From: Bacteroidota bacterium
GTDB taxonomy: Bacteria; Bacteroidota; Ignavibacteria; Ignavibacteriales; Ignavibacteriaceae
Reading direction: 5' to 3'
Assembly: GCA_021777835.1 (NCBI GenBank)
Contig: JAJYDC010000013.1
Location: 1-64,000, forward strand
Length of the DNA: 64,000 nucleotides
Shown one piece after another: positions 44,947 through 63,542 of this stretch; position 1 is the first letter of the stretch; each line of letters opens with the position of its first letter. Made by a program: the position numbers and the translations under genes. The notes beneath the pieces are model-generated. The model did no database searches. It saw only the letters and a program-made list of their open reading frames with translations, and had not been told where the DNA came from.

Positions 44947-45012
44947 CTGAATACGTCCTGAAAACGTCATGAAATCGTTCTGAAAACGTCATGAAAACGT
45001 TCTGAAAACGTT
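44947..45012. repeat. six tandem copies of an 11-base unit
   Basis: Units at 44947, 44958, 44969, 44980, 44991 and 45002, each 11 bases with consensus (C/A)TGAAAACGT(C/T). Copies 1 and 3 carry one A-to-T change each. The 11-base period is close to one helical turn, so every ACGT core faces the same side of the DNA. Confidence 0.92.
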
Positions 45013-46383: not shown

Positions 46384-46391
46384 GATGCGAA

Positions 46392-46940: not shown

Positions 46941-46973
46941 AAGACAATAAAACTGTTCTTTGAACTTTATGTG

Positions 46974-46979
46974 TATAAT
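46974..46979 (+). promoter_or_regulatory. possible -10 element for ssrA
   Basis: TATAAT 26 bases before the mature tmRNA 5' end. No good -35 box was seen at 16-18 base spacing, so the assignment is tentative. Confidence 0.35.
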
Positions 46980-47004
46980 TTAAACCTGGTCAGAATAATT
47001 ATTA

Positions 47005-47361: not shown

Positions 47362-47581
47362 CTAGTACAATAATATTATCTTGCTATTTACGTTTAATTC
47401 CTTCTCATCTCACTACTAACTATTTATGAAGCATAAAACTACCCGTAAATCAGTTAATACCAAACAACTAATTCCTATATTTGTAAAACATTACTCCTAA
47501 AAAAACATTCCATTCAATTTAAAAAAGTCAGTAAAAAGGATTATTTTAGTACGACATAAAATTATCTAATAGGGATTTGAA

Positions 47582-48208: not shown

Positions 48209-49194
48209 TGCTAACCATCTCAATAATTTTAATAATTCTGTTGGGGCTAACCTTCGACTTCCTAAACGGATTTCATGATGCAGCTAATTCTGTTGCGACA
48301 GTAGTCTCAACAAGGGTGCTTTCTCCTAATGCAGCAGTAATCTGGGCGGCCTTCTTTAATTTCATCGCATTCCTTTTCTTCGGTCTTCATGTAGCGAATA
48401 CAATCGGAAAAGGCATTGTTGATATAAAGGTAATTGATTCATCAATAGTCTTTGCCGCCTTAGCAGGCGCTTCTATCTGGAATATTATCACTTGGTATTT
48501 TGGTCTTCCAACAAGCTCTTCTCACGCCTTGATCGGTGGATTAATAGGTGCAGCAGTTGTAAAAGCAGGAGTTTCCTCCTTGGTTTCAAGTGGGATAATT
48601 AAAACCATATTATTCATTTTTATTTCACCCTTACTCGGTTTAGTATTAGGTAGCACAATAGGAATTATTGTTTTTAGAATATTCCGCAAAAGCACCCCAT
48701 CAAAAGTTGATCATATTTTTAGGAAAGGTCAACTTGTTTCTGCTGCCTTTTACAGCCTTGGACATGGAGGCAATGATGCACAAAAAACAATGGGCATAAT
48801 TGCAGGACTTCTCTTTAGTGCACATTTAATAGATAAGTTCTTTGTACCCCTCTGGGTAGTTCTTGCATGTCAAGCAGCTATGGCGCTTGGTACGGTGTTT
48901 GGAGGATGGAGAATTGTTAAAACCTTAGGACAAAGAGTTGTCAAGTTGAAACCTGTCGACGGGTTCTGCGCAGAACTTGGAGCAGCAAGCACACTTTTCG
49001 TTTCTACTGCTTTTGGAATACCGGTCAGTACAACTCATACTATAACAGGAGCTATAACGGGAGTAGGTTCTTTAAAGAGATTTTCTGCTGTAAGGTGGGG
49101 CGTTGCCGGTAGAATAGTCTGGGCATGGATATTTACTATTCCTCTCACTGCAATTATATCTGCTATTGCCTATTTTGCTACCAGAATTTTTTAA
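48208..49194 (+). CDS. pit: PiT-family inorganic phosphate transporter
   Basis: Inner-membrane phosphate:cation symporter, 328 residues with about ten membrane helices. The duplicated PiT signatures are both present: GFHDAANSVATVVSTRVLSP near residues 22-41 and GHGGNDAQKTMGI near 189-201, plus GLPTSSSHALIGG and GIPVSTTHTITGA. The length is at the short end, typical of the single-unit bacterial and archaeal PiT proteins. It is coupled to the DUF47 gene. Confidence 0.94.
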   Translation: MLTISIILIILLGLTFDFLNGFHDAANSVATVVSTRVLSPNAAVIWAAFFNFIAFLFFGLHVANTIGKGIVDIKVIDSSIVFAALAGASIWNIITWYFGLPTSSSHALIGGLIGAAVVKAGVSSLVSSGIIKTILFIFISPLLGLVLGSTIGIIVFRIFRKSTPSKVDHIFRKGQLVSAAFYSLGHGGNDAQKTMGIIAGLLFSAHLIDKFFVPLWVVLACQAAMALGTVFGGWRIVKTLGQRVVKLKPVDGFCAELGAASTLFVSTAFGIPVSTTHTITGAITGVGSLKRFSAVRWGVAGRIVWAWIFTIPLTAIISAIAYFATRIF

Positions 49195-49315
49195 TACCGG
49201 ATTATTTCTATAAAATAACATTTGCTTATCTTATTTAACAAGATACATTATAAAATTATTAATCATTAATATTATTATTGAAAAGGATTTCATATTGTCC
49301 TAAATTGCAAGTGCA

Positions 49316-50170
49316 ATGGAAAAAGTTTCTTTTATAAAAATGAGCGGCGCAGGAAATGATTTTGTCGTTATAGATAAAAACATTAATCCAGCCATTGTTT
49401 TAAAACAAAATATTATCCAGAAGTTATGTGATCGCAGAAATGGTATAGGTGCTGACGGTGTTATAACTATTTCTAACTCTGTCGACTATGATTTTGAAAT
49501 GGAATATTTTAATGCTGATGGCTCAACAGGAAGTCTCTGTGGTAATGGCGCTAGATGTGCCATTAAATTTGCTGAAAACTCAAGCCGAATTAAAAACAAA
49601 AAGACTCATTTTTTATCTAATTCAGTACCCTTTACTGGAGAAGTTCTAGATGAAAATATAATAAAATTTGATTTTAATCCGCCGACTAAACTCAAGTTTA
49701 ATTTTAAGATTAAGGCAGGCGGCCAATTGATGAATGCTTGCTTTGCAGATACCGGTTCTCCTCATGTGGTAATTAAGATTGAGGATGTACTTCAAAATCC
49801 AAATGACTTGAATTCTAATTATTCGGAAATTGATAAATTTCCTGCGTATGAATTAGGAAGAGAAATAAGATATCTGAAAGAATTTGCTCCAGGCGGCACA
49901 AACGTAAACTTCATCAAAATAGTCGATAATAAAATTTATATTCGAACTTATGAACGAGGTGTAGAAGATGAAACGCTGGCATGTGGAACAGGTTCTACTG
50001 CTGCTGCCATAATAGCTCACGTTACTGATAAGCTAGAATCACCAATTACGCTAATATCTCACGGTTTAGATGAGCTTAAAGTTAACTTTAATGTTGAAAA
50101 TCAAAAAATAAATAATCTTTCATTAACTGGACCAGCTAAAATAATTTTTAGCGGGAATATATATATATAA
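49316..50170 (+). CDS. dapF: diaminopimelate epimerase
   Basis: Converts LL- to meso-diaminopimelate for lysine and peptidoglycan synthesis. The 284-residue protein begins MEKVSFIKMSGAGNDFVVID and carries both catalytic cysteines, one in NADGSTGSLCGNGARC and one in EDETLACGTGSTAAA. The length and motif order are standard. It has its own upstream region of 121 bases and is followed by a small gene, possibly in the same transcript. Confidence 0.97.
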   Translation: MEKVSFIKMSGAGNDFVVIDKNINPAIVLKQNIIQKLCDRRNGIGADGVITISNSVDYDFEMEYFNADGSTGSLCGNGARCAIKFAENSSRIKNKKTHFLSNSVPFTGEVLDENIIKFDFNPPTKLKFNFKIKAGGQLMNACFADTGSPHVVIKIEDVLQNPNDLNSNYSEIDKFPAYELGREIRYLKEFAPGGTNVNFIKIVDNKIYIRTYERGVEDETLACGTGSTAAAIIAHVTDKLESPITLISHGLDELKVNFNVENQKINNLSLTGPAKIIFSGNIYI

Positions 50171-50199
50171 AAATTTTACTAAAAATATATGGAGACTAA

Positions 50200-50505
50200 A
50201 TGCCAAAGGTAATATTCACAATTCAATATGAACTCAAGCCTGACAAAAAAGAAGAATATCTGAGTGTTGTTAAGGAGCTGAAAAATCTTCTTAAAGCCGA
50301 GGGTTTGGAGAACTATGCAGTTTATGACTTAAAAGGGAAAGTAAATCATTATGAAGAAATTTATTCCTTTGCATCCTCTGAAGCCTATGAAGCTTTTGAT
50401 GATAATCAGGACGAAAGAGTGAACATTCTTATTAGTAAATTGAATGATCTCACTGTCGATAATTCCACAAAATATTCAACATTATATGAGCTAGACCAGC
50501 CTTAG
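50200..50505 (+). CDS. small dimeric alpha-beta barrel-like protein of unknown function
   Basis: A 101-residue protein beginning MPKVIFTIQYELKPDKKEEY, a beta strand followed by a helix, a pattern seen in dimeric alpha-beta barrel (monooxygenase-like/EthD-like) proteins. Later segments YAVYDLKGKVNHYEEIYSF and the C-terminal TKYSTLYEL add strands. A GGAG ribosome binding site precedes the ATG. A strong hairpin follows, so the transcript with dapF probably ends here. The enzymatic role is unknown. Confidence 0.65.
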   Translation: MPKVIFTIQYELKPDKKEEYLSVVKELKNLLKAEGLENYAVYDLKGKVNHYEEIYSFASSEAYEAFDDNQDERVNILISKLNDLTVDNSTKYSTLYELDQP

Positions 50506-50518
50506 CAAAAGATATAAT

Positions 50519-50546
50519 AATAGGCGGTCATTAGTGACCGCCTATT
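50519..50546 (+). terminator. rho-independent terminator, perfect 12-base stem
   Basis: AATAGGCGGTCA and TGACCGCCTATT are perfect complements around a TTAG loop, flanked by A-rich upstream and T/A-rich downstream sequence. It separates the dapF unit from the cytochrome cluster, and may work in both directions. Confidence 0.85.
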
Positions 50547-50592
50547 TAAATTAAAATCAATTAAATTATTCTTCAATAATCTTTCTGTTTGA

Positions 50593-51468
50593 ATGAATAA
50601 GAAACTGCACACAATATATATCGCATCTTTTTTTATAGTTGGAATTTCGTCTACACTCTTGTTGGTGATAAACGGATATCAATATTATAATACTCCTCTG
50701 CTGACAAGGTTTTTTAATCCTCAGGATATCCTATTAAAACCCAGTGGTTTTATTGGGCAAGGATTAGGGGTTCTTGGTAGCCTCATGATGATACTAGGTG
50801 TTGCAATTTATATGATAAGAAAAAGGGTAAGATATTTTTTACACTTCGGATATTTAAAGAACTGGCTTGAACTTCATATCTTTCTATGCACTCTTGGACC
50901 TATATTTGTCTTGTTTCACACTGCTTTTAAATTCGGAGGACTTGTAGCTGTAAGTTTTTGGAGTATGACAGCAGTAGTCCTAAGCGGAATAGTAGGTAGA
51001 TTTCTTTATGTTCAGATACCGCACACAATTCAGGGGCAGATAATTGGGATGGATGAATTAAATGCACAAAACGAAAATCTTTCGCACCAATTAAAGGAAG
51101 TATACAATTTACCCACAAGAATATTCGAGGAAATTGAACAAATTTCTTCACTTAAGAGGCATAATAGCCCAAAGTTAAAAATCGGGATTGCATTTCTAAT
51201 AAAAGATTTTTTTGGTACAAAAAGTGTAATTCATAATCTGAAACATGAATTAGCTCTTGCTGAAGTACCAAAATCAAAGCGAAAAAGCATAGCGAAAATA
51301 GTCAAAACAAAGCTGATCTTTTCTAGAAGAATCGGTCTACTAAAAACTATGCAAAAATTTTTTAGATATTGGCATGTTGTACATTTACCATTTGCCATTC
51401 TTATGTTTGTTATAATGTTTATCCACATAGCTGTTACTGTCGCTTTTGGCTATAGGTGGATATTCTAA
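50593..51468 (+). CDS. membrane b-type cytochrome-like protein
   Basis: A 291-residue inner-membrane protein with about five helices (6-27, 54-75, 92-112, 117-139, 262-286). Histidines placed for heme ligation occur on two helices: His95 and His109, and His261, His264 and His278 (YWHVVHLPFAILMF and FIHIAV). This two-helix, multi-His pattern resembles diheme b-type cytochromes such as cytochrome b561/ferric-reductase-like proteins, but no exact family is recognised. A soluble linker (about 145-255) is inserted before the last helix. It is the first gene of a string ending in multiheme cytochromes, so quinone or NAD(P)H-linked electron transfer is likely (inference). Confidence 0.72.
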   Translation: MNKKLHTIYIASFFIVGISSTLLLVINGYQYYNTPLLTRFFNPQDILLKPSGFIGQGLGVLGSLMMILGVAIYMIRKRVRYFLHFGYLKNWLELHIFLCTLGPIFVLFHTAFKFGGLVAVSFWSMTAVVLSGIVGRFLYVQIPHTIQGQIIGMDELNAQNENLSHQLKEVYNLPTRIFEEIEQISSLKRHNSPKLKIGIAFLIKDFFGTKSVIHNLKHELALAEVPKSKRKSIAKIVKTKLIFSRRIGLLKTMQKFFRYWHVVHLPFAILMFVIMFIHIAVTVAFGYRWIF

Positions 51469-51585
51469 ATGAAATAACATTAATTCCTTCTAATAGCTTA
51501 TTCTGCTTGAGCATTATGTTTCTAACGATTGGTTTTTCACTATCGAAAAACCTTTATATTGTTTTTTCAACAAATCAAGTAATCG

Positions 51586-52926
51586 ATGGAAACACTAATA
51601 GAGAATTATACTACTTATTTTTTTGTTTTATTATTTACAATCGCTATTCTGGTTTTGTATCTAAAAAAACATTTCCATGAGTCGAAAGCTACTCTAAATA
51701 AAATCCAAACGTCCAAGAGATTAGGGTTTCACGAACCTATTTCTCTGCATCCTGTAATTGACCATGAACGCTGTATTGGAAGCGGGGCTTGCATTACAGC
51801 TTGTCCTGAGCAAGATATTATAGGATTGGTAAATGGACAAGCTCAAGTAATCAATGCATCGCGCTGTGTTGGCCATGGCGCATGTTTCCATGCGTGTCCC
51901 TTAAATGCAATTACACTTTGCATAGGAACTGAAAAACGAGGGGTTGAATTACCGCATGTCAGCCAAGAGTTTGAATCAAATATTCCCGGTCTTTTTATAG
52001 CTGGGGAACTGGGAGGCATGGGGCTAATCAAGAATGCCATTGAACAGGGTGTCCAAGCTGTAACTTCCTTTACAAAAAAGATAAATAAACAAATCCAGAC
52101 AGAATATGACCTTATAATCGTAGGTGCAGGGCCTGCGGGTATTTCTGCTACGTTGACAGCAGCAAAGAACAAATTAAATTTCTTAACGCTAGAGCAAGAC
52201 ACTCTTGGTGGGACGGTTTATAATTTTCCACGATCAAAAATAGTAATGACTTCAACAGTAGAACTACCAATGTATGGCCAATTAAAAATGAAAGAGACTT
52301 CTAAGCCTGAACTTCTATCAATTTGGAAATCAGTATTAAAAAATAATAAAATATCAATAAATGAAAATGAGAAAGTTGAATCAATAGAAAAAATAAAGGA
52401 TCATTTCGAAATTAAATCATCAAAAAGCGTTTATACTTCAAAGGGAGTCATTATCGCGATAGGGAGAAGAGGATCCCCCCGTAAACTTGGTGTTAATGGA
52501 GAAGAAATGGAAAAAGTAGCGTATCGCTTAATAGAACCTGAATTAATCTCTAATAAAAAAGTTCTTGTCGTTGGTGGAGGTGATTCAGCAATTGAGGCTG
52601 CTCTAATGCTGTCGCATTCAGAAAATAATATAGTAACTCTTTCCTACCGGGGTAGCAGCTTTTCGAGAATTAAGCCGAGAAATTTAGAAAATATTACAGA
52701 AGCCTCTTCAAAAAAAGAGGTAGGAATATTTTTTAATTCTAATGTTAAAGAGATTAAAGAAGATAGAGTTATTCTGGAAATTAATAATTCTGATCAATTA
52801 TTCGAGCTAGAAAATGATCTGGTATATATTTTAGTTGGTGGGCAGCTACCAACGGATTTTCTGCAGAAAACGGGAATTCATATTACTAAAAAATTCGGCG
52901 AAGCTGTCTTAAAACATGAAAATTAG
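51586..52926 (+). CDS. membrane-anchored ferredoxin-like/FAD/NAD(P) oxidoreductase
   Basis: A 446-residue redox protein. One N-terminal membrane helix (10-26) is followed by a 2[4Fe-4S] ferredoxin-like domain (55-112), a flavin-fold fragment with NIPGLFIAGELGGMG (132-146), an FAD domain with GAGPAG (180-185) and an NAD(P) domain with VVGGGDSA (328-335). In both Fe-S motifs the second Cys is replaced: C63-x2-S66-x2-C69-x3-C73-P and C94-x2-H97-x2-C100-x3-C104-P. No thioredoxin-reductase CxxC is present. It likely passes electrons between a pyridine nucleotide and the neighbouring cytochromes. It overlaps the next gene by 11 bases. Confidence 0.85.
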   Translation: METLIENYTTYFFVLLFTIAILVLYLKKHFHESKATLNKIQTSKRLGFHEPISLHPVIDHERCIGSGACITACPEQDIIGLVNGQAQVINASRCVGHGACFHACPLNAITLCIGTEKRGVELPHVSQEFESNIPGLFIAGELGGMGLIKNAIEQGVQAVTSFTKKINKQIQTEYDLIIVGAGPAGISATLTAAKNKLNFLTLEQDTLGGTVYNFPRSKIVMTSTVELPMYGQLKMKETSKPELLSIWKSVLKNNKISINENEKVESIEKIKDHFEIKSSKSVYTSKGVIIAIGRRGSPRKLGVNGEEMEKVAYRLIEPELISNKKVLVVGGGDSAIEAALMLSHSENNIVTLSYRGSSFSRIKPRNLENITEASSKKEVGIFFNSNVKEIKEDRVILEINNSDQLFELENDLVYILVGGQLPTDFLQKTGIHITKKFGEAVLKHEN

Positions 52927-54538
52927 AATACAAATTATTATAAATATTTTGTTTGTCATTATGATTTTGTTTTCATATACATCTAATGTACATGCACAAA
53001 TATCTCCAGGTAATCTTACATTCGCACACGCAAACCTTGAGGGATTAAGCAATTGTACAAAGTGTCATGTTTTGGGTAAGCAATTGGAGAATTCAAGATG
53101 CTTAGCATGTCATACGGAAATAAACGCAATGATTAATCAAAATAAAGGTTTTCATTCAAGCTTAGGGGTAAAGAATAAAAAGTGCTGGGAGTGCCATAGT
53201 GAGCATCATGGAAGAGCTTTTAGAATAATTAATTTTTCGCCTGATAATTTTGATCATTCTATTACAGGGTTTGCACTTGATGGGGAACATTCTCAAATAA
53301 AATGCCAGGAGTGTCATCAAGATAAATTTATATCAAACTCTTTGTTCAAAAAAAGGAAAGATACTTACCTTGGGTTAAGTACTAAATGCGTTTCCTGCCA
53401 CCAGGATGTGCATCAAAATACTCTTGGGAATAATTGTTCTTCATGCCACAATACCATTAAGTTTAAGCCTGCAGCTCTTTTCAACCACAACAGTGATGCA
53501 AAATTTAAACTTACAGGTGCCCATTCAAAAGTTGAATGCATTAAATGCCATATAAATGAAAAATTGAACGGCAAACAATTTCAGAAATTTGTAGGTCTTC
53601 AATTCAAAAACTGTACCCCATGTCATCAGGATGTTCATAAAAGGCAATTTGGTGAAAATTGTATTAGATGTCATAATGTGGAATCATTCAAAGAAATGAA
53701 TAGAAATTCCTTTGACCACAGCAAGACGAGATTCCCGCTTGAAGGCGCTCACTTACGAGTTTCTTGTACAAATTGTCATGGTAAAGATTTACTGTCAAAA
53801 CCAAAATTTACAGAGTGTATAGATTGCCATAAAGATGCTCACTTTGGTGAATTTACAGTAAACAATATTGTTACAGACTGCAAAAAATGCCATAATGTTA
53901 TTAGCTTTAAGACAACCTTATTTACTTTAGCTGAACATAATAAGGAAGGATTCAGGTTAACTGGCGCGCACTTGGCTGTTTCTTGTCAATCCTGTCACTT
54001 TAAAAAAGTCTTAAGACAATGGCACTTTATGAAAATTGGGGAAAGGTGTATTGATTGTCATGAAAATGTGCATGGGGTAGAGCTAACTCAAAAGTTTATG
54101 CCTGATAATAAATGTGAATCATGTCATGTTACTGAAAGCTGGAGGACAATTAATTTCAATCATAATATTACTGGCTTCAAACTTTTGGGAAAACACGATT
54201 CGGTTTCGTGCAATAGCTGTCATGAAGTGAAAAATGAAGCGGGTAAATTCACTTTCAGATTCGTTTCTCTTCATTCGAACTGCACAACATGTCATAATGA
54301 CATTCACTTCGGTCAATTTAATTCAGAGAAAATAAAAAAAGTATCTGTTTGCGAAAATTGTCACGGTTTCGACAATTGGAGACCGGTTAATTTTGATCAT
54401 GAAAAAACCAATTTCCCTTTGAAGGGAGCACATGAGAAAGTATCATGTTTTTCATGTCATAAAAAAATTACGAAGAACGGAAATGTTTTTATTCAATATA
54501 AATTAAGAGACTTCAAATGCGCAACCTGTCATGCATAG
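52916..54538 (+). CDS. periplasmic 20-heme c-type cytochrome
   Basis: A 540-residue exported cytochrome with signal peptide 1-27 (VHA-QIS cleavage) and 20 CXXCH heme-binding motifs (first at Cys47, last at Cys535). The protein is built from six to seven units of about 76 residues, each with an F-x-H-x-x-x-x-F-x-L-x-GAH-x-x-V-x-C-x-x-CH start (near 112, 189, 266, 338, 414, 493) and three hemes. The many extra His residues in the repeats could be distal ligands. It is Lys-rich, unlike the next protein. Probably an electron wire between the inner membrane and the cell surface. It overlaps the next gene by 22 bases. Confidence 0.93.
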   Translation: MKIRIQIIINILFVIMILFSYTSNVHAQISPGNLTFAHANLEGLSNCTKCHVLGKQLENSRCLACHTEINAMINQNKGFHSSLGVKNKKCWECHSEHHGRAFRIINFSPDNFDHSITGFALDGEHSQIKCQECHQDKFISNSLFKKRKDTYLGLSTKCVSCHQDVHQNTLGNNCSSCHNTIKFKPAALFNHNSDAKFKLTGAHSKVECIKCHINEKLNGKQFQKFVGLQFKNCTPCHQDVHKRQFGENCIRCHNVESFKEMNRNSFDHSKTRFPLEGAHLRVSCTNCHGKDLLSKPKFTECIDCHKDAHFGEFTVNNIVTDCKKCHNVISFKTTLFTLAEHNKEGFRLTGAHLAVSCQSCHFKKVLRQWHFMKIGERCIDCHENVHGVELTQKFMPDNKCESCHVTESWRTINFNHNITGFKLLGKHDSVSCNSCHEVKNEAGKFTFRFVSLHSNCTTCHNDIHFGQFNSEKIKKVSVCENCHGFDNWRPVNFDHEKTNFPLKGAHEKVSCFSCHKKITKNGNVFIQYKLRDFKCATCHA

Positions 54539-56394
54539 TCTTCTTGTTGATTGGTTCACTTAGTATTTTTGCTCAATCACCACATGGCAATTCTTTGAAA
54601 ATAGATTGCTCGAGTTGTCACGAGTCAACAAATTGGAGAATAATTCCAAAAAACGTAAAGTTTAATCACAACTCTGAAACATCCTTTAAGCTTACCGGGC
54701 AGCATGTTACAGTAAACTGCATATCGTGTCATAAGAGTCTAATTTTTTCAGAAGCAAAAACACAATGTATCTCATGTCATTTAGACGTTCATCAAAACAG
54801 CGTTGGAGTGAACTGTGTACGATGTCATAAAACAAACTCTTGGATAGTCAACAATATAATTCGAATACATCAGAACAGCAGATTTCCGTTGATGGGAGCT
54901 CATTTAAATGTGGATTGTCAAAGTTGTCATTCTGAGTATTTGAACTTGTATTTTCCCATTATAAGTGTATCTTGCTTTAGTTGTCATAAACAGCAGTACT
55001 ATGCAACCACATCACCAAATCACGTTCAGGCAAATTTTTCTACAAACTGCCAGACTTGTCATGGATTAACGGATTTTACATGGGGCAACGCAAGTTTTGA
55101 CCATAGTTTTTTCCCATTAGTAGGTGGACATAATATTCAAAATTGTTTTGCTTGTCATGCTCCGGGAAGTAATTTCAAAGGTTTGACAACTGATTGCTAT
55201 CCGTGTCATAAACAGAACTATATTACGGCAAAAAATCCTGATCATATTGCCGCAAAATTTCCAACCACTTGTCAGGATTGCCATAATACTTTAACGTTTA
55301 CGCAAGCAGTGTTTAATCACAATAGTACTGGTTTCCCTTTGACAGGAGCCCATGCGTCGATATCATGTCAGTCTTGCCATATATCTGGATATACAAATAC
55401 GCCTACCAATTGTTATTCGTGCCATGCGTCGGATTATGCAAACACAACTAATCCAAATCATTCTGCGCAAGGATTTTCTCATGATTGCTCGCAATGTCAT
55501 ACAACCAACGATTGGGGTGGAGGTTCATTTGATCATACCGCAGTAGGATTTCCATTAACTGGTATGCATGCAAATTTACAATGTGCTCAATGCCATACGT
55601 CTGGATTTACGAATACCTCTATGGCCTGCGTTACATGCCACTTAAAAGATTACTCAGCTGCCATATCCCCTGTGAATCATGTCGCGGCAGGATTACCACA
55701 AACATGTCAAGACTGCCATAGTATTGCCGCACAATTTACAACCACTTCATTTACGCATTCATCAACAGGTTTTGCTTTGACAGGCGCTCATACGACAGTT
55801 AGCTGTGAATCATGCCATAAAGGTAGTGTTATGAATACGCCGGTAGACTGCTATTCATGTCATGCAAATGACTATGCAAACACAACAGACCCGAATCATG
55901 TTCAACAAGGATTTCCTCATGATTGTACTCAGTGTCATACAACTACTAGTTGGGGAGATGCTAATTTCAATCACAGTGGTACGGGATTCCCATTAACTGG
56001 AGCACATACAACGGTGGCATGTCAGTCCTGTCATAATTCAAATTATACAAATATATCACCTCTATGTTATAGTTGCCATCAACAAGATTATGCAGGAACT
56101 ACTAACCCTGCCCATCAATCAGCTGGTTTCCCGACTGATTGTACCCCATGTCATACTACTTCAGGATGGACACCATCTACATTTAATCATGCTCAATATT
56201 TTCCATTATCAGGAAATCACGATATTTCAACTTGTAGTACATGTCATACTACAGCTTCGAATTTTGGAGTTTTCTCCTGTACAGCCACTTGCCACAGTCA
56301 GGCGAACACTGATCCCCATCACACTGATGTTAGTGGCTATGTATATAGCCCAACTTCATGTTATGGATGTCATCCAACAGGGCAAGGAGATTAA
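54517..56394 (+). CDS. 25-heme repeat c-type cytochrome
   Basis: A 625-residue exported cytochrome (signal peptide 1-19, IFA-QS) with 24 CXXCH motifs and one CX3CH (CTATCH at residues 588-593). It consists of about eight repeats of roughly 72 residues beginning F-x-H-x-x-x-x-F-P-L-x-G-x-H (near 49, 115, 194, 266, 338, 412, 484, 556), three hemes each. Units 4 to 7 are the most alike, sharing GFPLTGAH, CYSCHAxDYANTT and GFPxDCxxCHTT strings. It is Thr/Ser/Asn-rich and Lys-poor, which fits a surface or outer-membrane location. It precedes the beta-barrel gene by only 5 bases. Confidence 0.93.
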   Translation: MRNLSCIVFLLIGSLSIFAQSPHGNSLKIDCSSCHESTNWRIIPKNVKFNHNSETSFKLTGQHVTVNCISCHKSLIFSEAKTQCISCHLDVHQNSVGVNCVRCHKTNSWIVNNIIRIHQNSRFPLMGAHLNVDCQSCHSEYLNLYFPIISVSCFSCHKQQYYATTSPNHVQANFSTNCQTCHGLTDFTWGNASFDHSFFPLVGGHNIQNCFACHAPGSNFKGLTTDCYPCHKQNYITAKNPDHIAAKFPTTCQDCHNTLTFTQAVFNHNSTGFPLTGAHASISCQSCHISGYTNTPTNCYSCHASDYANTTNPNHSAQGFSHDCSQCHTTNDWGGGSFDHTAVGFPLTGMHANLQCAQCHTSGFTNTSMACVTCHLKDYSAAISPVNHVAAGLPQTCQDCHSIAAQFTTTSFTHSSTGFALTGAHTTVSCESCHKGSVMNTPVDCYSCHANDYANTTDPNHVQQGFPHDCTQCHTTTSWGDANFNHSGTGFPLTGAHTTVACQSCHNSNYTNISPLCYSCHQQDYAGTTNPAHQSAGFPTDCTPCHTTSGWTPSTFNHAQYFPLSGNHDISTCSTCHTTASNFGVFSCTATCHSQANTDPHHTDVSGYVYSPTSCYGCHPTGQGD

Positions 56395-56399
56395 TACGT

Positions 56400-58031
56400 A
56401 TGAATAACAATTTGAAAAAACTGTTAGTCTCTTTTTCCTTTACAATATTATTATCAGCTGCATTACTTGCGCAGGATAATAAAACTATTAAGAAAGATGG
56501 AAAAGTTTCTTTTATCACTTCGCAAAATGTTTATCTAATTTTCGGCAATACAGATGGAATTGAAGTTGGTGATACTCTTTATTTTGAGTTTAGGGAAAAA
56601 ATTATTCCGGCAATTGTAGTAAAATATTTATCTTCGCAATCAGTTGCTGGTGAGAAAATAGGAAAAAATGATATAAGAATCGGTGATAAAATCATTGCTT
56701 TTGTTAGGAAGAAGGACACCAGAAGCACACTACATGTAATAGCCGGAGATGAAAAAGATACTACTCTGATTATAAATGCCAAACCGCAAATATTAAATGC
56801 TGATAGGTCTATTGTTCCCGTTAAAAGAAAAACAATTTACGGAAGTTTTAATGCTACATCATTTTCAAATTATGCAAACTATCCCAACAGTGTTGGTATT
56901 CAAAGGTGGAATTATTCTTTGAATTTACAGGATGAGAATATAAGTGGAAGTTCTTTTTATTTTTCTAATTATATGAATCTGTCTTATATGAGCTCTGAAT
57001 GGAAAGATGTTAAAGCAAATATTTTTAATAATCTAAGAGTATATGATTTATCTTTAGGATATAGAGGTAGTGGTTTTAATATATGGCTAGGGAGGCATAT
57101 AAATTATAGTATATCAAGTGCAGGTCCAATTGACGGGTTGCAAGTAGAAAAATCTATTGGGAATTTTGCTATAGGTGGTATTTTTGGATCAAGACCTGAC
57201 TATAATAATCTTGGATTAAATTCACAGCTATTTGAATATGGCGGATATGTTAATAGAATTGATTCTGTAAATAGCGGGGTAATACAAAGCACGCTCGCAA
57301 TATTTCAACAAACAAATCATGGGGATACCGATCGAAGATTTTTATATTTTCAGCATACAAACAATGCATTTAAGAATTTATATTTCTTCCTTTCATCAGA
57401 AGTTGATCTATATAAAGTTAAAAATAACATTCAGCAGAATGACTTATCTTTAACAAGTTTATTCTTCAATACCCAATATACACCGGACAATATAATCTCA
57501 TTAAATTTGTCTTATGATGCTAGGAAAAATGTGGTTTATTATCAGTCCTTTAAAAGTTTTTTGGATAGTTTGTTTACAAATGAAATGAGGCAAGAAATAC
57601 AAATAGGTATTTTTTTAAGGCCTGTAATTGATTTATTTATTAACATGAATGGCGGATACAGCTATCAGAAGGGAGATATTAGGCCGTCTAGAAATTTTAA
57701 TATTTCTATTTCTGAATCAGAGATCCCGATTATAGACTTAACAGCGACAGTTAGCTATAACAGGGTCTTTAACAATTTTCAGGACGGATCAATATACAAT
57801 TTTACATTATACAAATATTTAACTTTCAACGCTTCCACTATATCTTTAGGCTTTTCAAACGTAACTTATAATTTCGGATATAATGCGAATAAGTTTTTCC
57901 AAAAATCAATAAATGCCCAAATAGACACGAAAATACTTGGGCCGTTATTTTTTAATTTCTATTATGAAGGTGATTTTACTGGGACGACTACGTATAATCG
58001 TTTTATGACTGGGCTTAATTACAGATTTTAA
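56400..58031 (+). CDS. outer-membrane beta-barrel (porin-like) partner of multiheme cytochromes
   Basis: A 543-residue exported protein. The signal peptide (1-24, ALLA-QD) is followed by a small periplasmic domain (about 30-105, GNTDGIEVGDTLYFEFREK and IRIGDKIIAF) and then alternating amphipathic strands rich in Tyr, Asn and Phe to the C-terminal NRFMTGLNYRF, ending in Phe as outer-membrane barrels do. An AAGGAGA ribosome binding site supports the ATG at 56400. It has no heme motif. Its position after two multiheme cytochromes parallels porin-cytochrome conduits of metal-reducing bacteria, but sequence similarity to them cannot be judged here. Confidence 0.8.
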   Translation: MNNNLKKLLVSFSFTILLSAALLAQDNKTIKKDGKVSFITSQNVYLIFGNTDGIEVGDTLYFEFREKIIPAIVVKYLSSQSVAGEKIGKNDIRIGDKIIAFVRKKDTRSTLHVIAGDEKDTTLIINAKPQILNADRSIVPVKRKTIYGSFNATSFSNYANYPNSVGIQRWNYSLNLQDENISGSSFYFSNYMNLSYMSSEWKDVKANIFNNLRVYDLSLGYRGSGFNIWLGRHINYSISSAGPIDGLQVEKSIGNFAIGGIFGSRPDYNNLGLNSQLFEYGGYVNRIDSVNSGVIQSTLAIFQQTNHGDTDRRFLYFQHTNNAFKNLYFFLSSEVDLYKVKNNIQQNDLSLTSLFFNTQYTPDNIISLNLSYDARKNVVYYQSFKSFLDSLFTNEMRQEIQIGIFLRPVIDLFINMNGGYSYQKGDIRPSRNFNISISESEIPIIDLTATVSYNRVFNNFQDGSIYNFTLYKYLTFNASTISLGFSNVTYNFGYNANKFFQKSINAQIDTKILGPLFFNFYYEGDFTGTTTYNRFMTGLNYRF

Positions 58032-58075
58032 GCAATAAAACAATTTAATCTATTAGTAATAATTTAATAATTCAT

Positions 58076-58699
58076 ATGAAAAAAATTAAACCTATTTTCT
58101 TTTATCTAAGCGGAATAGCCGCAACTATCATTATTTTATATTTTGTTGCAAGTATCAATCCTGATTTTTCTTCAACACCAAACATGAAAGCACCCCCCGG
58201 AGATATTTCTGGGCAACCTATCCCACAAGATAAAATACATCAAGGACTGAAAAATCCAATTGCTCAAAAGCCAAGTAAAAGTAATGTATTGCCAAGCATT
58301 ATGCAGCACATGAATCAGCTAAAGAAAGCAGTAGAGAAAAATCCGAGAGACACTGCAAAGTTGAAGGAGTATGCAGACTTTTTACTGAGTGCACAAATGA
58401 GTGATCGTGCATTATATTATTATAAAGAAATACTGAAAATTAATCCGCGAAGAATTGATATTTTGTCCTCTGTGGTATTTATTTATTTTTCTCAAAACAA
58501 ACTTGATAATGCTGAAAAGTATTTAAATAAGATCCTTTCGGTTGATAAGAATAATGTTGATGCACTATATAATCTTGGTGCAGTATCAGCAAATAAAGGG
58601 AACAGAATTAAAGCAAAGGAGTATTGGCAGAAGATCATAACCAACTTTCCTAAATCGCCATTGGCTCAAAAGGCAAAAGAATCAATGAGCCAGTTGTGA
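58076..58699 (+). CDS. membrane-anchored TPR protein, copy 1
   Basis: A 207-residue protein with one N-terminal membrane helix (about 6-26), a Pro/Gly-rich linker containing IPQDKIHQGLKNP, and about three tetratricopeptide repeats (95-200: ALYYYKEILKINPRRIDIL, AEKYLNKILSVDKNNVDALY). TPR domains usually bind partner proteins. It follows the barrel gene after 44 bases and is a paralog of the gene at 59649. It may assist maturation or assembly of the cytochrome complex, as TPR proteins do in c-type cytochrome biogenesis (inference). Confidence 0.82.
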   Translation: MKKIKPIFFYLSGIAATIIILYFVASINPDFSSTPNMKAPPGDISGQPIPQDKIHQGLKNPIAQKPSKSNVLPSIMQHMNQLKKAVEKNPRDTAKLKEYADFLLSAQMSDRALYYYKEILKINPRRIDILSSVVFIYFSQNKLDNAEKYLNKILSVDKNNVDALYNLGAVSANKGNRIKAKEYWQKIITNFPKSPLAQKAKESMSQL

Positions 58700-58996
58700 T
58701 ATTTTGAATATCAGGACCTTATTACTTAATAAGTGAAATTGCGCAAATAGTCTATTTAGCAAATTCAATTGATTGCTGATGGACTTACTGTAATTATTCA
58801 TAAGCTGCCTTGATAGCTTTCTCGTAAATCTCTTCTTTATGCAAAATGATTTAGTTTTGGTTTTCATTCTTACGCACTTTAATTTACAAAGGGCAAATAT
58901 TGAAGCAAAAATCTGATTACAAAAGCGGGAATTGTATATCGAAATATTTGAGTAAAAAGAGCGAACTAATCTATAAATTTAAGACAAAAAATATCA

Positions 58997-59008
58997 AAAA
59001 TGGCAGAC
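58997..59008 (+). repeat. 12-base direct repeat copy of the downstream palindrome arm
   Basis: AAAATGGCAGAC occurs here and again at 59104-59115, 107 bases downstream, where it forms the right half of an inverted repeat. Confidence 0.6.
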
Positions 59009-59096
59009 TACCTATAATATAAGTACAAGATATGAAAAAAAAGGAAAGTGTGAAAATGAGCTAGAAACGAACTATTTAAGGTAGGTAAATTTTAAC

Positions 59097-59115
59097 GTCT
59101 GCCAAAATGGCAGAC
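59097..59115. promoter_or_regulatory. 19-base inverted repeat, possible operator
   Basis: GTCTGCCA and TGGCAGAC are perfect inverted copies around AAA, in the gene-free region upstream of the second TPR gene. The length and symmetry fit a dimeric regulator site. It is about 530 bases from the next start codon, so its target is unclear. Confidence 0.45.
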
Positions 59116-59648
59116 ACAAAAAGGGTGGATTTTCTGTTATAGACGCACTAAAAATCAGACAACAAATCAAAGACCCGTGAACAAAGGTCACTTATTTGCA
59201 CCCCAATATAAAAAATTTTAGAAAAAAGCTAAACTGAGTCATTATAATTACGTAATTACTTAAGTTATGCAAAAATGAATTTTATTATGAAAAAAATCTT
59301 AATTAATTATTCCCACAATTTGCCCCCGAACCTTCGGAGAAAGAGGGAATACATTTTTTCCTATTTTAGAATGTTGGGTAACCGCTTTTGGGTGTATGAC
59401 TTATATTATTTACAGTCTCGCAGAACCTCAGTAAGTATAATAATTGTAGGATAACAAATAAAAACTACTGAAATTCTTTCTCAATGATGAGAACTAATTT
59501 TTATTATTAGATAAAAATAAATTAATTGAAGTCTTATATATTAAAAAAGCGACAATTGGAGGACAATTCTTTAATTTTATTATTGGTATAAAAACTGTAA
59601 TACAATAAGCAATTTTATGAATTAACAAAGAATCAAGATGGAGATTCC

Positions 59649-60251
59649 ATGAAAACAATAAAACCTCTCTATATATATATTGCAGGAATTATACTAGCCG
59701 TATTAGTCTTTTACTTTATATCAAATAATTCAACACAAACAACATCCTCCTCGAGCAAGGTCAATACTAATCAAATGCCCCAAGATAAAATACATAGCGA
59801 ACTACAGAATCCACAAGCGCCGGGTAAAAATAATGTAATGGCCGGCATTATGCAGAAAATGGATGAACTTAAAATGGAGGTTGAGGCTCACCCCAATGAT
59901 ACTTTAAAAATAAGGCAATATGCTGATTTCTTAACCGAGGCGCATCAAAAAGACCAGGCATTAATATACTACAAGAAAATTCTAAATATTAATCCAAGAA
60001 GAGTTGATATTCTTTATACTGTAGCTTATCTAAATTATGTTGGTAAAGATTTTAACGCAGCAGAAAAAAATTTGAATAAGATTTTGTCAATTGATAAAAA
60101 TAATGTCAATGCTTATTATAATTTGGGAGCTATTGCCGTAAGCCAGGGTAACAAAGCCAAAGCGGAACAAATATGGGAAAAATTAGTAATGGAATTTCCC
60201 AAATCACCTATTGCTCAAAAAGCCAAGGACTCGATTAAACAACTTAACTAG
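59649..60251 (+). CDS. membrane-anchored TPR protein, copy 2
   Basis: A 200-residue paralog of the TPR protein at 58076: the same N-terminal membrane helix, the same linker motif (MPQDKIHSELQNP) and matching TPRs (ALIYYKKILNINPRRVDILY, AEKNLNKILSIDKNNVNAYY), ending FPKSPIAQKAKDSIKQL. A GGAG ribosome binding site precedes the ATG. The two copies are separated by 949 gene-free bases. The close match suggests a duplication within this lineage. The role is probably shared with copy 1. Confidence 0.82.
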   Translation: MKTIKPLYIYIAGIILAVLVFYFISNNSTQTTSSSSKVNTNQMPQDKIHSELQNPQAPGKNNVMAGIMQKMDELKMEVEAHPNDTLKIRQYADFLTEAHQKDQALIYYKKILNINPRRVDILYTVAYLNYVGKDFNAAEKNLNKILSIDKNNVNAYYNLGAIAVSQGNKAKAEQIWEKLVMEFPKSPIAQKAKDSIKQLN

Positions 60252-60279
60252 TAAAGTGAACCAGTAATGAAGGCGTTCA

Positions 60280-60306
60280 TTGGATTGCAATTTTTGTGCA
60301 ATTCAA
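60280..60306 (+). terminator. hairpin after the second TPR gene
   Basis: A 10-base stem (one G-T wobble) with a 7-base loop, 28 bases after the stop. The T-run is in the loop rather than after the stem, so termination is only plausible. Confidence 0.35.
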
Positions 60307-60389
60307 ACTGCCGTTTTGTATATAATATTTTTTGTTATCTTTTTCTTGAGTAAATTATTATTATTATTTCAAAGAAAAAGTAATAGAAT

Positions 60390-61442
60390 ATGTTTGAATA
60401 TACTGGTGCGCTTCATATGCACTCAATTTTTTCCGACGGATCTGGAGAAGTTGGAGATATTATTAATGCTGCTAAAGAATCTGGTTTAGATTTTATTATT
60501 CTCACAGATCATAATACTCTTCGTGCTTTGAACGAAGGTTTTGAGGGCAGATATGGTAATACATTATTACTTGTTGGCTGCGAAATTAATGACAAAGAAA
60601 ATAAGAATCATTACCTGGCCTTTGGAATAAATGAAACCTATTCCACAAGAACTTCTGCGAAAGAATATGTTAAAAAAATAAAAGACTCAGGCGGAATTGG
60701 TTTTCTGGCTCACCCTCACGAAAAAAGGACTCACATGCAAGATCATCCCCCCTATCCATGGACAGAATGGGATACGGAAGATTTTACGGGGATTGAAATT
60801 TGGAATCATATGTCTGAATGGATGGAAAATTTAACAGAACAAAACAAATATCAATCATTTCTACATCCGCTAAAGCTAATTACTAAACCCCCAGAAGAAA
60901 CGATAAAAAAATGGGACGAGTTAAATATGACCAGAAAAGTAGTTGGTATTGGAGGAGTTGATGCCCATGCTCACAAATATAATCTTCTCGGTTTTTTAGA
61001 AGTAGAAATTTTCCCATATAAGGTATTATTTAAATCGATAAGGACTCATATTTTAGTGCCAGAAGAAATTCCTTCGGAAAAGGAATTGTTCCCTAAAGCC
61101 AAAGAGCTTGTTTACAACTCGCTAAAAAATGGATTGTGTTTTGTTGCAAATGACTACCATGGAGACTCCAATGGCTTTAGATTTTTTGCAGAAAGCAATA
61201 AAAGAATTTTCAATATGGGTGATACTTTATATTGCAGCGAAAGGATGAAACTAAATGTTTTAGTCCCAATTGATAATTCTGAAATTCGGCTTATTCATAA
61301 CGGCAAAGAAATTGACTCGGTAGTTAGCGGCAATGCTGAATTTATTGTCAAAGAAAAAGGGATTTATCGAGTCGAAGTTTTCATTGCTAATAAAGCTTGG
61401 ATATATTCAAATCACATACGCATAAAGCAGAATTTAGCTTAA
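60390..61442 (+). CDS. PHP-domain metal-dependent phosphoesterase
   Basis: A 350-residue cytosolic protein with the PHP metal-binding motifs GALHMHSIFSDGSG (about 6-19) and ILTDHNTLR (about 36-44), then LVGCEIN and FLAHPHEKRTHM (about 106-117) and a late GGVDAHAHKYN (about 189-199). These match PHP phosphoesterases such as the YciV-like and histidinol-phosphatase-like groups. The C-terminal 90 residues form a separate beta-rich domain. The exact substrate cannot be told. It is monocistronic, flanked by two hairpins. Confidence 0.85.
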   Translation: MFEYTGALHMHSIFSDGSGEVGDIINAAKESGLDFIILTDHNTLRALNEGFEGRYGNTLLLVGCEINDKENKNHYLAFGINETYSTRTSAKEYVKKIKDSGGIGFLAHPHEKRTHMQDHPPYPWTEWDTEDFTGIEIWNHMSEWMENLTEQNKYQSFLHPLKLITKPPEETIKKWDELNMTRKVVGIGGVDAHAHKYNLLGFLEVEIFPYKVLFKSIRTHILVPEEIPSEKELFPKAKELVYNSLKNGLCFVANDYHGDSNGFRFFAESNKRIFNMGDTLYCSERMKLNVLVPIDNSEIRLIHNGKEIDSVVSGNAEFIVKEKGIYRVEVFIANKAWIYSNHIRIKQNLA

Positions 61443-61465
61443 ATAGATGGTCACATTTAAGCTAA
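61434..61465 (+). terminator. hairpin overlapping the PHP gene stop codon
   Basis: Perfect 11-base arms (TTAGCTTAAAT / ATTTAAGCTAA) around a 10-base loop, covering the TAA stop and followed by GATTTAAT. The lack of a long T-run makes it a moderate terminator candidate. Confidence 0.5.
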
Positions 61466-61649
61466 GATTTAATAAAATAATATCTAAATAAAAAACAACC
61501 ACAAAAAGACTCTATTTATTAAGTTAAATACTTCAGCATATTTTTTCATTTTATAATTTATTATACTAAATTCTCAATTGCTTAACATGACCGGTATTAT
61601 TAAATTTACGAGTGAAATTCACATATTTTTAAGAAATTCGGCGGACTGA

Positions 61650-62120
61650 ATGAAAGTTTTAGATTTATTGAACAAAAATTTTATTATTTCAGATCTTAAA
61701 TCGACTGAAAAAGTAGATGCTATAAATGAAATGATCGACCTATTCGAAAATGACCCTCGTATAATTGATCTTGATAAAGTAAGGGATGCGGTTTTAGAAA
61801 GAGAAAAAATAATGTCAACAGGTGTTGGAAAAGGATTTGCAATACCTCATGGAAAAACAAATGCAGTAAATGATATCCTAGCTGCATTCGGAAAGTCTAA
61901 TAAACCAATCGAATATGACTCGCTTGACGGGCACCCTGTTTATCTTGTTTTCCTTCTTGTTGGAAAAGATAATCTTGTAAGTAACCATATTAAGTTACTT
62001 AGTCGCATTTCAAGAATGATGAACAAAGATGAATTTAGAGAAAAATTAATTAAAGCAAAAACTTCAGAAGAGATTTTAGAGATTTTTAGAAAAGAAGAAG
62101 AAAATTATTTTGAAGTGTAA
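61650..62120 (+). CDS. PTS EIIA component, PtsN-like
   Basis: A 156-residue EIIA domain of the fructose/nitrogen (EIIA-2) type. The phosphorylated His lies in FAIPHGKTNAVNDILAAFG (about 65-83), and the C-terminal LVSNHIKLLSRISRMM helix is typical. It is a single domain without EIIB or EIIC, so it fits a regulatory PtsN-type protein more than a sugar transporter. No other PTS gene is nearby. It has 207 bases upstream and is followed by hisS after 69. Confidence 0.88.
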   Translation: MKVLDLLNKNFIISDLKSTEKVDAINEMIDLFENDPRIIDLDKVRDAVLEREKIMSTGVGKGFAIPHGKTNAVNDILAAFGKSNKPIEYDSLDGHPVYLVFLLVGKDNLVSNHIKLLSRISRMMNKDEFREKLIKAKTSEEILEIFRKEEENYFEV

Positions 62121-62189
62121 GCCGATCTTCCAAATACTTTTTCTCCAGAGAAAAATTCTGTCCCTCATTTCTTGTTATAAAAATGTAAT

Positions 62190-63476
62190 ATGATTAAGTC
62201 TATAACCGGCACTAAAGATATCCTTCCCGCAGAAATACCTTACTGGCAGAGGCTGGAAAGTATTGTTGAGAAAATTTTCTCGAGCTTTAATTATAAAGAA
62301 ATTAGAACTCCCGTTTTTGAAGAGACAAACTTATTTGTTCGGAGTATTGGCGAGGAAACAGATATTGTCGGCAAAGAAATGTATACATTTAATGACAAGA
62401 GTAATGCTAGCATTACTTTAAAGCCGGAAATGACTGCTTCAGTTGCACGTGCATTTATTGAACATTCTTTTGGAAAACTCCAGCCGTTAAATAAATTTTA
62501 TTATATCTCCCCGATGTTTCGTCAGGAAAGGCCTCAAGCCGGAAGGCAACGACAGTTCCACCAATTTGGGGGAGAAGCTTTAGGGAGCCCATCTCCTCTG
62601 CTTGATGCAGAAATTATAATCATTGCTTTTAGAATATTATCTTCGCTTAATCTAAAAGACCTAACCGTAAAAATAAATTCTCTCGGGATTCCTTCATCAA
62701 GAGAAAATTATAAAAATATTTTAAGAAAACATCTCGATGACAAAAAAAATCAACTTTCGGAAGACAGCAGGAAAAGATTCGATAAAAATATTTTAAGGAT
62801 ATTCGATAGTAAAGTTGAATTGGATCAGGAAATAATAAAAAATGCTCCTGTACTGATTGATTTTATTGATGAGGAGAGCAAGAATGATTTTGAATTGGTA
62901 AAAGCTCTTTTAAAGCAAAGTAAAGTCCCATTCGAGGTAGACACAAAATTAGTACGTGGACTGGACTATTATACCAAAACCACGTTTGAAATTGTAAGCG
63001 GAAAAGTTGGTTCTCAAAATGCTCTTTGCGGCGGCGGCAGATATGACCTTCTAATTGAACAGCTTGGAGGCGCACCAACACCCGGTGTTGGTTTTGCAGC
63101 AGGAATGGAAAGAATCCTACTTGCTTGCCAAAATGAAAAATCATTAAACTTGCCAGGTGAAAAAATTGATTTGTACATAACCAGAGTTGATGAAGATTTA
63201 ACTCAAAAAGTTTTTGAGCTTGCTGTTTACTTTCGTCAGGAATCCTTAATAGTTGAATTAGATTACCTAGGAAGAAGTGTAAAAGCACAAATGCGAGAGG
63301 CAAATAAGCTTAATGCCCGGTTTGTACTATTTGTCGGCGGTGAGGAGTTTAAGTCAAAAAAATTAATTCTAAAAATAATGTCGACCGGTGAACAAAAAGA
63401 ATATCCGTTAGAAGAGTTAAATGAAATCAAAAGTTTTATTTATGGAGAGGTCTATAAATCATATCCGAATTATTAA
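62190..63476 (+). CDS. hisS: histidyl-tRNA synthetase
   Basis: Class II aminoacyl-tRNA synthetase charging tRNA-His, 428 residues. Motif 2 is FRQERPQAGRQRQFHQFGGE (about 112-131), the histidine-specific motif is LVRGLDYYTKTTFE (about 253-266), and GGGRYDLLIEQLGG with GFAAGMERI forms motif 3. The C-terminal anticodon-binding domain ends with a GGEEFKSKKLILKIM-type strand. All key elements are present. The next gene, lgt, starts 66 bases later. Confidence 0.96.
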   Translation: MIKSITGTKDILPAEIPYWQRLESIVEKIFSSFNYKEIRTPVFEETNLFVRSIGEETDIVGKEMYTFNDKSNASITLKPEMTASVARAFIEHSFGKLQPLNKFYYISPMFRQERPQAGRQRQFHQFGGEALGSPSPLLDAEIIIIAFRILSSLNLKDLTVKINSLGIPSSRENYKNILRKHLDDKKNQLSEDSRKRFDKNILRIFDSKVELDQEIIKNAPVLIDFIDEESKNDFELVKALLKQSKVPFEVDTKLVRGLDYYTKTTFEIVSGKVGSQNALCGGGRYDLLIEQLGGAPTPGVGFAAGMERILLACQNEKSLNLPGEKIDLYITRVDEDLTQKVFELAVYFRQESLIVELDYLGRSVKAQMREANKLNARFVLFVGGEEFKSKKLILKIMSTGEQKEYPLEELNEIKSFIYGEVYKSYPNY

Positions 63477-63542
63477 GAATTCTAAAACTTTATTTCTTGA
63501 AATATAATACCGAATCACATTACCAAGCAAAGGAAATGAAAA

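Follow-up and report, generated by a model that had tools for sequence, protein, structure and literature searches.

The PCC3 conduit has been published as a set of four genes from Proteobacteria, encoding in order an inner-membrane protein (IMP), a periplasmic multiheme cytochrome (MHC) of about 20 to 27 hemes, a larger extracellular MHC and an outer-membrane barrel (PMC5566968, PMC10734462; gene order in Sideroxydans lithotrophicus ES-1 from PMC8788666 and PMC12016527; here and throughout, papers are cited for those parts of their texts that were available). He et al. (2017; PMC5566968) described the IMP of PCC3 and PCC4 by five helices, WX3HX13H and SGxxG, with the HX13H pairs on transmembrane helices 3 and 5 (TM3 and TM5) as in NADPH oxidase and ferric reductase (FRD) enzymes, and noted that other IMP clusters, which have no porin, contain 'another redox protein'. 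Electron transfer across the outer membrane by PCC3 is functionally unverified (PMC12442390). Two further types, MtrCAB/MtoAB and OmbB-OmaB-OmcB (Pcc), also combine a barrel with two MHCs; Pcc clusters are known in Ignavibacteria (PMC4245776, PMC7399161, PMC6137239), and 'pcc-like' and 'mto-like' clusters have been named without detail in Ignavibacteriales and a Caldithrix bin (PMC6137239). Here, we describe seven genes, A to G, in a 64,000-nucleotide stretch of an Ignavibacteriaceae assembly (GCA_021777835.1, contig JAJYDC010000013.1, positions 1 to 64,000; 'the window'), which fit the PCC3 type and not the Mtr type and which include a flavoprotein, B, as an additional component.

Gene content and resemblance to PCC3

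A sequence-only reading of the window had singled out seven consecutive same-strand genes with four tight junctions and 45 candidate heme sites. All seven open reading frames (ORFs) are present at the coordinates it gave on the plus strand and encode, in this order, a cytochrome b (A), an Fe-S/FAD protein (B), two MHCs (C and D), a barrel (E) and two tetratricopeptide repeat (TPR) proteins (F and G). The tight junctions were also recovered, with B/C and C/D overlapping, 5 bases between D and E and 44 between E and F; the spacing is 117 bases between A and B and 949 between F and G. The 45 sites are composed of 20 CxxCH motifs in C and 24 CxxCH plus one CxxxCH in D, a density that is not due to chance, as a six-frame translation of the window contains just three CxxCH motifs beyond those of C and D. 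Pfam families bear out the flavin, NAD(P) and Fe-S domains claimed for the cluster, all in B (Fer4 and Pyr_redox), and assign c7/c3 domains to C and D and TPR to F and G; A and E gave no match above the Pfam cut-off.

Gene A (50593..51468, +) encodes a 291-residue protein that, judging from its ORF, motifs and an AlphaFold2 model, is a PCC3-type IMP and probably a di-heme cytochrome b. It contains two HX13H motifs and SGxxG, with H95/H109 and H264/H278 as candidate heme ligands; all 59 aligned rows share H95, H109 and H278, and 58 of them have H264. The model, with a predicted local distance difference test score (pLDDT) of 91.4, consists of five long helices plus a helical stretch between the last two, which by the positive-inside rule would face the cytoplasm, and places the WX3HX13H motifs on the third and fifth helices. 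A thus has the five helices, the two WX3HX13H motifs and the SGxxG by which the PCC3 IMP is defined. A profile of A retrieved the Gallionella IMP at 1e-32, and the Gallionella IMP as query retrieved homologues from Emticicia (1.9e-15) and Arenibacter (4.9e-12).

Gene E (56400..58031, +; alternative in-frame ATG at 56358) encodes 543 residues, predicted to form an outer-membrane beta-barrel preceded by a small N-terminal beta domain. In agreement with the barrel claimed earlier for this protein, the model (mean pLDDT 82.1) contains 22 strands from residue 145 on, by our count of the listed elements and omitting one 3-residue strand, and the 50 rows listed by VIA-align are outer-membrane porins with Z from 15.9 to 18.9 over approximately residues 141-543. 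A specific likeness to MtrB was rejected, as 6r2q_B appeared at rank 44 (E 2.7e-6, TM 0.32) only amid general porins. We then compared E with PCC3-type porins. Among 69 candidate proteobacterial ORFs, seven passed the inclusion threshold of an E profile, all of them porins of PCC3-type clusters (best 6.4e-7); other porins in PCC3 position remained under the threshold (0.02, 0.055, 0.47 and 1.5) and that of locus L115 gave no match. A profile-profile comparison of E with 13 proteobacterial PCC3-type porins yielded 98.0% (E 1.7e-13) over 375 columns of the barrel. The source of these 13 porins was PCC3-layout clusters on named proteobacterial contigs rather than published accessions; they were chosen by position and a barrel-like C-terminus, that of L116 additionally for its match. 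By its barrel model and profile match, E is distantly homologous to the PCC3 porin; it is shorter than the 13, which measure 598-888 residues (two being cut by contig ends). In five of them (L105, L117, L121, L130 and L135), a SPOR domain lies N-terminal to the barrel, above the cut-off in each case, and would perhaps anchor the conduit to the cell wall.

The two cytochromes occupy the remaining PCC3 positions. C (52916..54538, +; 540 residues) carries 20 hemes and is probably periplasmic, and D (54517..56394, +; 625 residues) carries 25, three per ~72 residues, and is probably extracellular; set beside the PCC3 extracellular cytochrome, D has the high heme number and an export-like N-terminus, the extracellular site being a prediction. 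Export signals on the cytochromes had been named as a point on which the conduit reading depends, and by a simple hydropathy rule the N-termini of C, D and E in the window all look like such signals. Among relatives, with starts chosen mechanically, 24 of 33 C proteins satisfy the rule, as do 36 of 40 for D and 38 of 40 for E.

Taken together, the order A-C-D-E is that of PCC3 (IMP, periplasmic MHC, extracellular MHC, porin), and the IMP motifs, the ~20-heme cytochrome predicted to be periplasmic, the larger, putatively outer cytochrome and the barrel agree as well. The published system differs in comprising four genes from Proteobacteria, whereas the cluster described here belongs to Ignavibacteria/Bacteroidota and adds B and free TPR proteins. 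MtrCAB/MtoAB share the barrel with an inner and an outer MHC, but those carry 10 hemes in place of 20 and 25, and membership was rejected because C scored 44.5 bits against the DmsE/MtrA cut-off of 192.2 (TIGR03508) and D 26.4 against 209.3 for OmcA/MtrC. Pcc shares a porin, with 18-22 strands predicted (PMC4245776), and two cytochromes; these have 8 and 12 hemes in Geobacter, and the periplasmic one of I. album has 14 (PMC4245776). The putative conduit from NAD(P)H or quinol to the outside that the sequence-only reading proposed is well supported by synteny, motifs and models; its Mtr typing was not borne out, and within its Pcc typing PCC3 fits better than the OmbB type, which was judged without a porin model.

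Flavoprotein B and conservation of the cluster

Gene B (51586..52926, +) encodes a 446-residue protein, anchored in the membrane at its N-terminus, that combines a ferredoxin domain with an NAD(P)H/FAD domain like those of thioredoxin reductase (TrxR) and YpdA (Pfam Fer4 and Pyr_redox_3). The solved structures nearest to its flavin domain are YpdA, thioredoxin reductases and TrxR-like ferredoxin-NADP reductases. Its ferredoxin motifs (51772..51900, +) read CxxSxxCxxxCP and CxxHxxCxxxCP, H97 replacing the second Cys of the latter. We aligned 109 complete B ORFs with a strong match, from the window, 34 places in the class Ignavibacteria and 74 of the 80 named loci described below. The hydrophobic N-terminal segment is present in 101 of them and the histidine in 109 of 109 (107 distinct), which makes H97 a candidate Fe-S ligand; the like position of the first motif holds Ser in 53, Cys in 40, Thr in 10 and other residues in 6. 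The seven cysteines of B in the window are the six of the ferredoxin motifs and C112. Because none lies in the flavin domain, B is not a TrxR-type thiol reductase. A 4Fe-4S domain protein bearing a heme-type motif has been reported in 41 of 87 iron oxidisers (PMC10734462); such a motif occurs in one of the 109 B rows, and the reported protein may or may not be B.

The order of genes in relatives, which had been proposed as a check on the cluster, proved conserved. E was found in 74 of 294 genomes of the class, at 80 places, and we retrieved the neighbourhood of 40 of the 79 places outside the window. All of A, B, C, D and E are present at 32 of these 40, in one of two arrangements and no other, A-(TPR)-B-C-D-E at 20 and A-(TPR)-C-D-E-B at 12. 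A scan with the B alignment confirmed at least 512 loci, and we studied the best 80; going by record titles, they span many phyla. These include 32 named Bacteroidota-type loci, one being Calditrichota (L143); 28 show the window's order as far as the stretch reaches and four have B after E. Among the other 48, many of which are short contigs, the retrieved stretch shows A accompanying B in 29 and both A and C doing so in 23. Two genomes were met twice and are counted once wherever distinct numbers are given. In proteobacterial loci, the IMP is followed by a cytochrome of 21 or 24 hemes, then by another large one and usually by a porin, B being mostly divergent beside the IMP.

To quantify the association of B, we counted genomes. 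In 321 gammaproteobacterial genomes, with thresholds of E up to 1e-8 for the IMP and up to 1e-80 for B (39 genomes each), 37 have both, two the IMP only, two B only and 280 neither, so that B occurs in 37 of 39 genomes with the IMP versus 2 of 282 without. Of 45 IMP matches, 37 have B within 11 kb and the remaining eight have no B on the contig. In the class, the corresponding numbers for B and E are 69 with both, five with E only, four with B only and 216 with neither, that is, B in 69 of 74 genomes with E versus 4 of 220 without. Two of the five E-only matches are fragments of ~110-130 residues and two have E-values near 1e-3. Fisher p values are 1e-43 (Gammaproteobacteria) and 8e-56 (class) and are descriptive, since the genomes are related. 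These distributions suggest that B is a near-obligate partner of PCC3-type membrane proteins. A membrane-anchored NAD(P) flavoprotein and TPR proteins beside a conduit formed a combination that the sequence-only reading did not recognise; the combination now appears general, with TPR-like motifs fused to most of the scanned proteobacterial porins.

Mobile elements carry related gene sets. The full A-E set, with cytochromes of 23 and 40 hemes, is located on plasmid pEMTOL02 of Emticicia oligotrophica, adjoining ccsA. On five of five non-Emticicia plasmid records examined (of 20 matched; Alteromonas, Methylophaga, Variovorax, Spirosoma and Bradyrhizobium), a relative of A with 22-26% identity, two HX13H sites (5/5) and SGxxG (3/5) stands between a FAD/NAD flavoprotein with 2Fe-2S and a 7-heme cytochrome. 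These modules resemble A and B in pairing the IMP with an NAD-flavoprotein that contains Fe-S. They differ in that the flavoprotein is of the unrelated FNR type (Pfam on four of them; in Bradyrhizobium, a 211-residue piece next to a transposase gene), the cytochrome is single and small, and no porin could be recognised from the names of the immediate neighbours. That two unrelated flavoprotein families take the same seat is the best argument for electron exchange between the IMP and NAD(P)H.

Several further observations concern the gene neighbourhood. The CcsA-annotated cytochrome c biogenesis gene of the Emticicia plasmid precedes the cluster (L068:6899-9985), raising the possibility that a maturation factor moves together with the system. 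Of the five other plasmids (L069, L070, L071, L072 and L073), four have genes for copper or heavy-metal resistance at most 12 kb from the module, and on the Alteromonas one hydrogenase genes lie within the same distance. In the class, a 99% complete genome of the same genus has no detected B or E, and two genomes of the same family have short E fragments only, one with stop codons (G257, G125 and G269), a pattern that may mean that the whole cluster was lost or gained together. Finally, an exported-looking ankyrin-repeat protein follows B in five of five scanned proteobacterial loci (L112:11314-13275, L105:11323-13314, L116:11213-13246, L123:7753-9744 and L146:11247-13112), with Sel1 repeats in four, and is a possible further PCC3 partner.

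Proposed electron path, direction and competing explanations

From gene content, order, conservation, co-occurrence, motifs and models, we consider it fairly probable that these genes specify a trans-envelope conduit of the PCC3 type, with an NAD(P)H (or ferredoxin) dehydrogenase in the cytoplasm as its inner end. Electrons would pass from NAD(P)H to the FAD of B and from there to its two Fe-S clusters, one with His replacing Cys. They would then reach the cytoplasm-side heme b of A (H95/H264) and its periplasm-side heme b (H109/H278). The 20-heme C would carry them across the periplasm into barrel E, which would deliver them to the extracellular wire D, whose length varies in three-heme modules, and F and G may hold or assemble the periplasmic side. 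The proposed core shares with NADPH oxidase and FRD the HX13H spacing on TM3/TM5 and an NAD(P)H-FAD partner, but A has no Pfam FRD match and the flavoprotein is separate, TrxR-like and equipped with a ferredoxin domain. With moderate confidence, we regard a net outward flow, from NAD(P)H to an external acceptor, as the more likely direction; electron transfer from NAD(P)H to the outside is downhill, and transfer from Fe(II) to NAD(P)+ needs an input of energy.

A number of observations weigh against an outward, NAD(P)H-driven conduit. Oxidising NAD(P)H straight to the outside would dissipate membrane potential and hence be costly. Fold comparison did not back the assignment of A, for a Foldseek search of its model gave no significant PDB match and VIA-align listed one cytochrome b561 row (Z 7.2, root-mean-square deviation 3.5, 135 residues), which is below noise for helical models; as that list held mostly unrelated helical proteins, no fold class was taken from it. 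At eight of the 40 class places, the retrieved stretch lacks at least one of the five genes (at five of them it reaches a contig end), and 34 of the 37 gammaproteobacterial IMP-B pairs are divergently transcribed, and so belong to separate operons. In the proposal of He et al. (PMC5566968), the IMP operates with the quinone pool, which our results would also allow. Reports on PCC3 expression conflict: both clusters of S. lithotrophicus ES-1 are down on Fe(II) (PMC8788666), whereas in Sideroxydans CL21 PCC3 genes are above the mean and one PCC3 membrane-protein gene is significantly up in iron-oxidising cells (PMC12442390).

The latter finding would suit an inward conduit, in which an external donor (Fe(II), a mineral, an electrode or a partner cell) feeds D, C and A, with most electrons going to quinone and oxidases and some via B to NAD(P)+. 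PCC3 was indeed described from Fe(II) oxidisers (PMC5566968). B matches include Gallionella, Methylotenera and clam symbionts, and the window genome has heme-copper oxidase genes. The lowered expression in ES-1 speaks against such a flow, as do energetics, since electrons from Fe(II) would have to climb steeply, against the membrane potential, to reach NAD(P)+ and no pumping subunit was seen; we hold an inward conduit to be unlikely, if still the most serious contender. Less probable again is an IMP that trades with the quinone pool and has B encoded alongside as an accessory, for instance a sensor, a repair enzyme or a side branch. He et al. likened the IMP to quinone-active cytochromes b (PMC5566968), and the divergent B of most gammaproteobacterial pairs and its place after E at 12 of the 32 full class loci would accord with that view. 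A flavin domain without Cys in the window, near-obligate co-occurrence in two distant groups and an unrelated flavoprotein family in the same seat beside related IMPs argue the other way. We give very little credence to a surface reductase that detoxifies metals or oxyanions in place of a respiratory wire. C does match ExtN and ExtO of selenite/tellurite operons (3e-14 and 1.3e-14), though with 53-54 bits against cut-offs of 200, and four of the five plasmid modules have resistance genes nearby; however, no metal-resistance gene was noticed in the ORF list from 45000 to 64000, for which no family search was made, and the long and variable D suits a wire.

Returning to the outward, NAD(P)H-driven conduit, we extend it only tentatively, as a conjecture we would not yet call probable, to PCC3 systems at large. 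These would be NAD(P)H- or ferredoxin-driven, quinone-independent exporters, with a split NADPH-oxidase-like core (B and the di-heme A) wired to a periplasmic cytochrome of near-fixed heme number and to an outer wire that evolves in three-heme steps. In the papers cited, PCC3 has neither a proven function nor an inner electron partner in the parts available, and B offers a candidate for the inner end. Its near-obligate presence predicts that NAD(P)H is coupled directly to PCC3, either in addition to the quinone pool or in its place. The gene set occurs in Ignavibacteria, Bacteroidota (including the Emticicia plasmid), Acidobacteria and other phyla, suggesting a widespread and sometimes mobile route and not a trait of iron oxidisers. 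If quinone-independent export holds true, cytosolic NAD(P)H would be linked to the outside by one conserved gene set in several phyla.

Literature searches for PCC3 with Bacteroidota found no paper, and those for PCC3 with Gallionella and FAD found none on FAD in PCC3. In the available parts of PMC5566968, PMC7399161, PMC4245776, PMC11475568, PMC10734462, PMC8788666, PMC12442390, PMC12977616, PMC12016527, PMC6137239, PMC8258643 and PMC6295460, supplements not included, no flavoprotein is named in PCC3; an earlier notice is possible. The locus is a genuine, conserved cluster; measured against these texts, it represents a putative conduit of the PCC3 type from a lineage they do not name for PCC3 and includes a flavoprotein they do not mention. 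What looks new is B as near-obligate partner, the near-fixed heme number of C versus the variable one of D, and TPR-like motifs before the porin barrel.

Heme numbers, TPR proteins and surroundings

Of 33 complete class ORFs for C, 29 have 20 hemes and the rest 19, 19, 16 and 23. The 29 named Bacteroidota-type rows divide into 17 with 20 hemes and 12 with 23, which brings the lineage to 59 of 62 rows with 20 or 23; counterparts in other phyla have 21 or 24 in 20 of 28 rows. In Gallionellaceae, the periplasmic cytochromes of PCC3 carry 21, 24 or 27 hemes, the outer ones are variable, and a periplasm-spanning role has been considered possible (PMC10734462).

D, by contrast, ranges from 10 to 70 hemes in the lineage, and 65 of 69 distinct proteins follow 3n+1. 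This set excludes six of 46 class rows that reach the end of a stretch and takes in short neighbours of 10-13 hemes from loci with two D-type genes. One of the four exceptions is without a motif inside a regular series, two are without the last part of the pattern, and the fourth has 15 hemes and is probably part of a split gene, the next ORF carrying 16. Hemes in D are spaced by ~32-15-25 residues, repeated. As a universal rule, 3n+1 was rejected, because it holds for just 9 of 19 outer large cytochromes of other phyla. Cytochromes of 40 and 33 hemes have been reported in Ignavibacteria, and heme motifs are gained or lost in groups in related large cytochromes (PMC7399161). The D gene of a same-genus relative with 40 hemes contains 4.2 copies of a 432-base unit, equal to two modules, with 89% matches, which points to tandem duplication as the way D grows. 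No DNA-level tandem repeats were found in D of the window, although D genes of relatives have them, and short-read assembly could collapse such arrays. Three-heme steps in D next to a near-fixed C in one lineage amount to a natural experiment on wire length.

F (58076..58699, +; 207 residues) and G (59649..60251, +; 200 residues) are membrane-anchored TPR proteins, and their 50% identity indicates that the pair is a local duplication. A separate TPR gene was recognised at 17 of the 40 class places and at six of the 32 named Bacteroidota-type loci, often between A and B. In 11 of the 13 proteobacterial PCC3-type porins, a mostly weak TPR match (E <0.01; for L105, scanned at 0.001 only) lies ahead of the barrel, and two (L121 and L146) pass the curated cut-off. 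These porin fusions suggest that TPR belongs to the conduit. F and G were rejected as plain NrfG-type maturation factors, with 32.5 and 27.3 bits against 306 for the NrfG model; their scores for PF23914 are 36.8 and 28.9 against a cut-off of 42, and a role as apocytochrome chaperones is possible.

Upstream, a terminator-like hairpin with a 12-pair stem (50519..50546, reported on the minus strand; a consensus match only) is located between the cluster and the preceding ORF (50200-50505). An Rfam search of 50000-61000 gave no match. A dispersed repeat fills the gap between F and G (58700-59640); the same genome has 16 more partial matches to it, at 72-94% identity. Within this repeat, positions 59099-59113 form the palindrome CTGCCAAAATGGCAG, for which 0.01 occurrences per window are expected. 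Other contigs of the genome (C36, C67, C69, C81 and C95) carry further c7-type multiheme cytochrome genes outside the window, so that additional conduits may exist.

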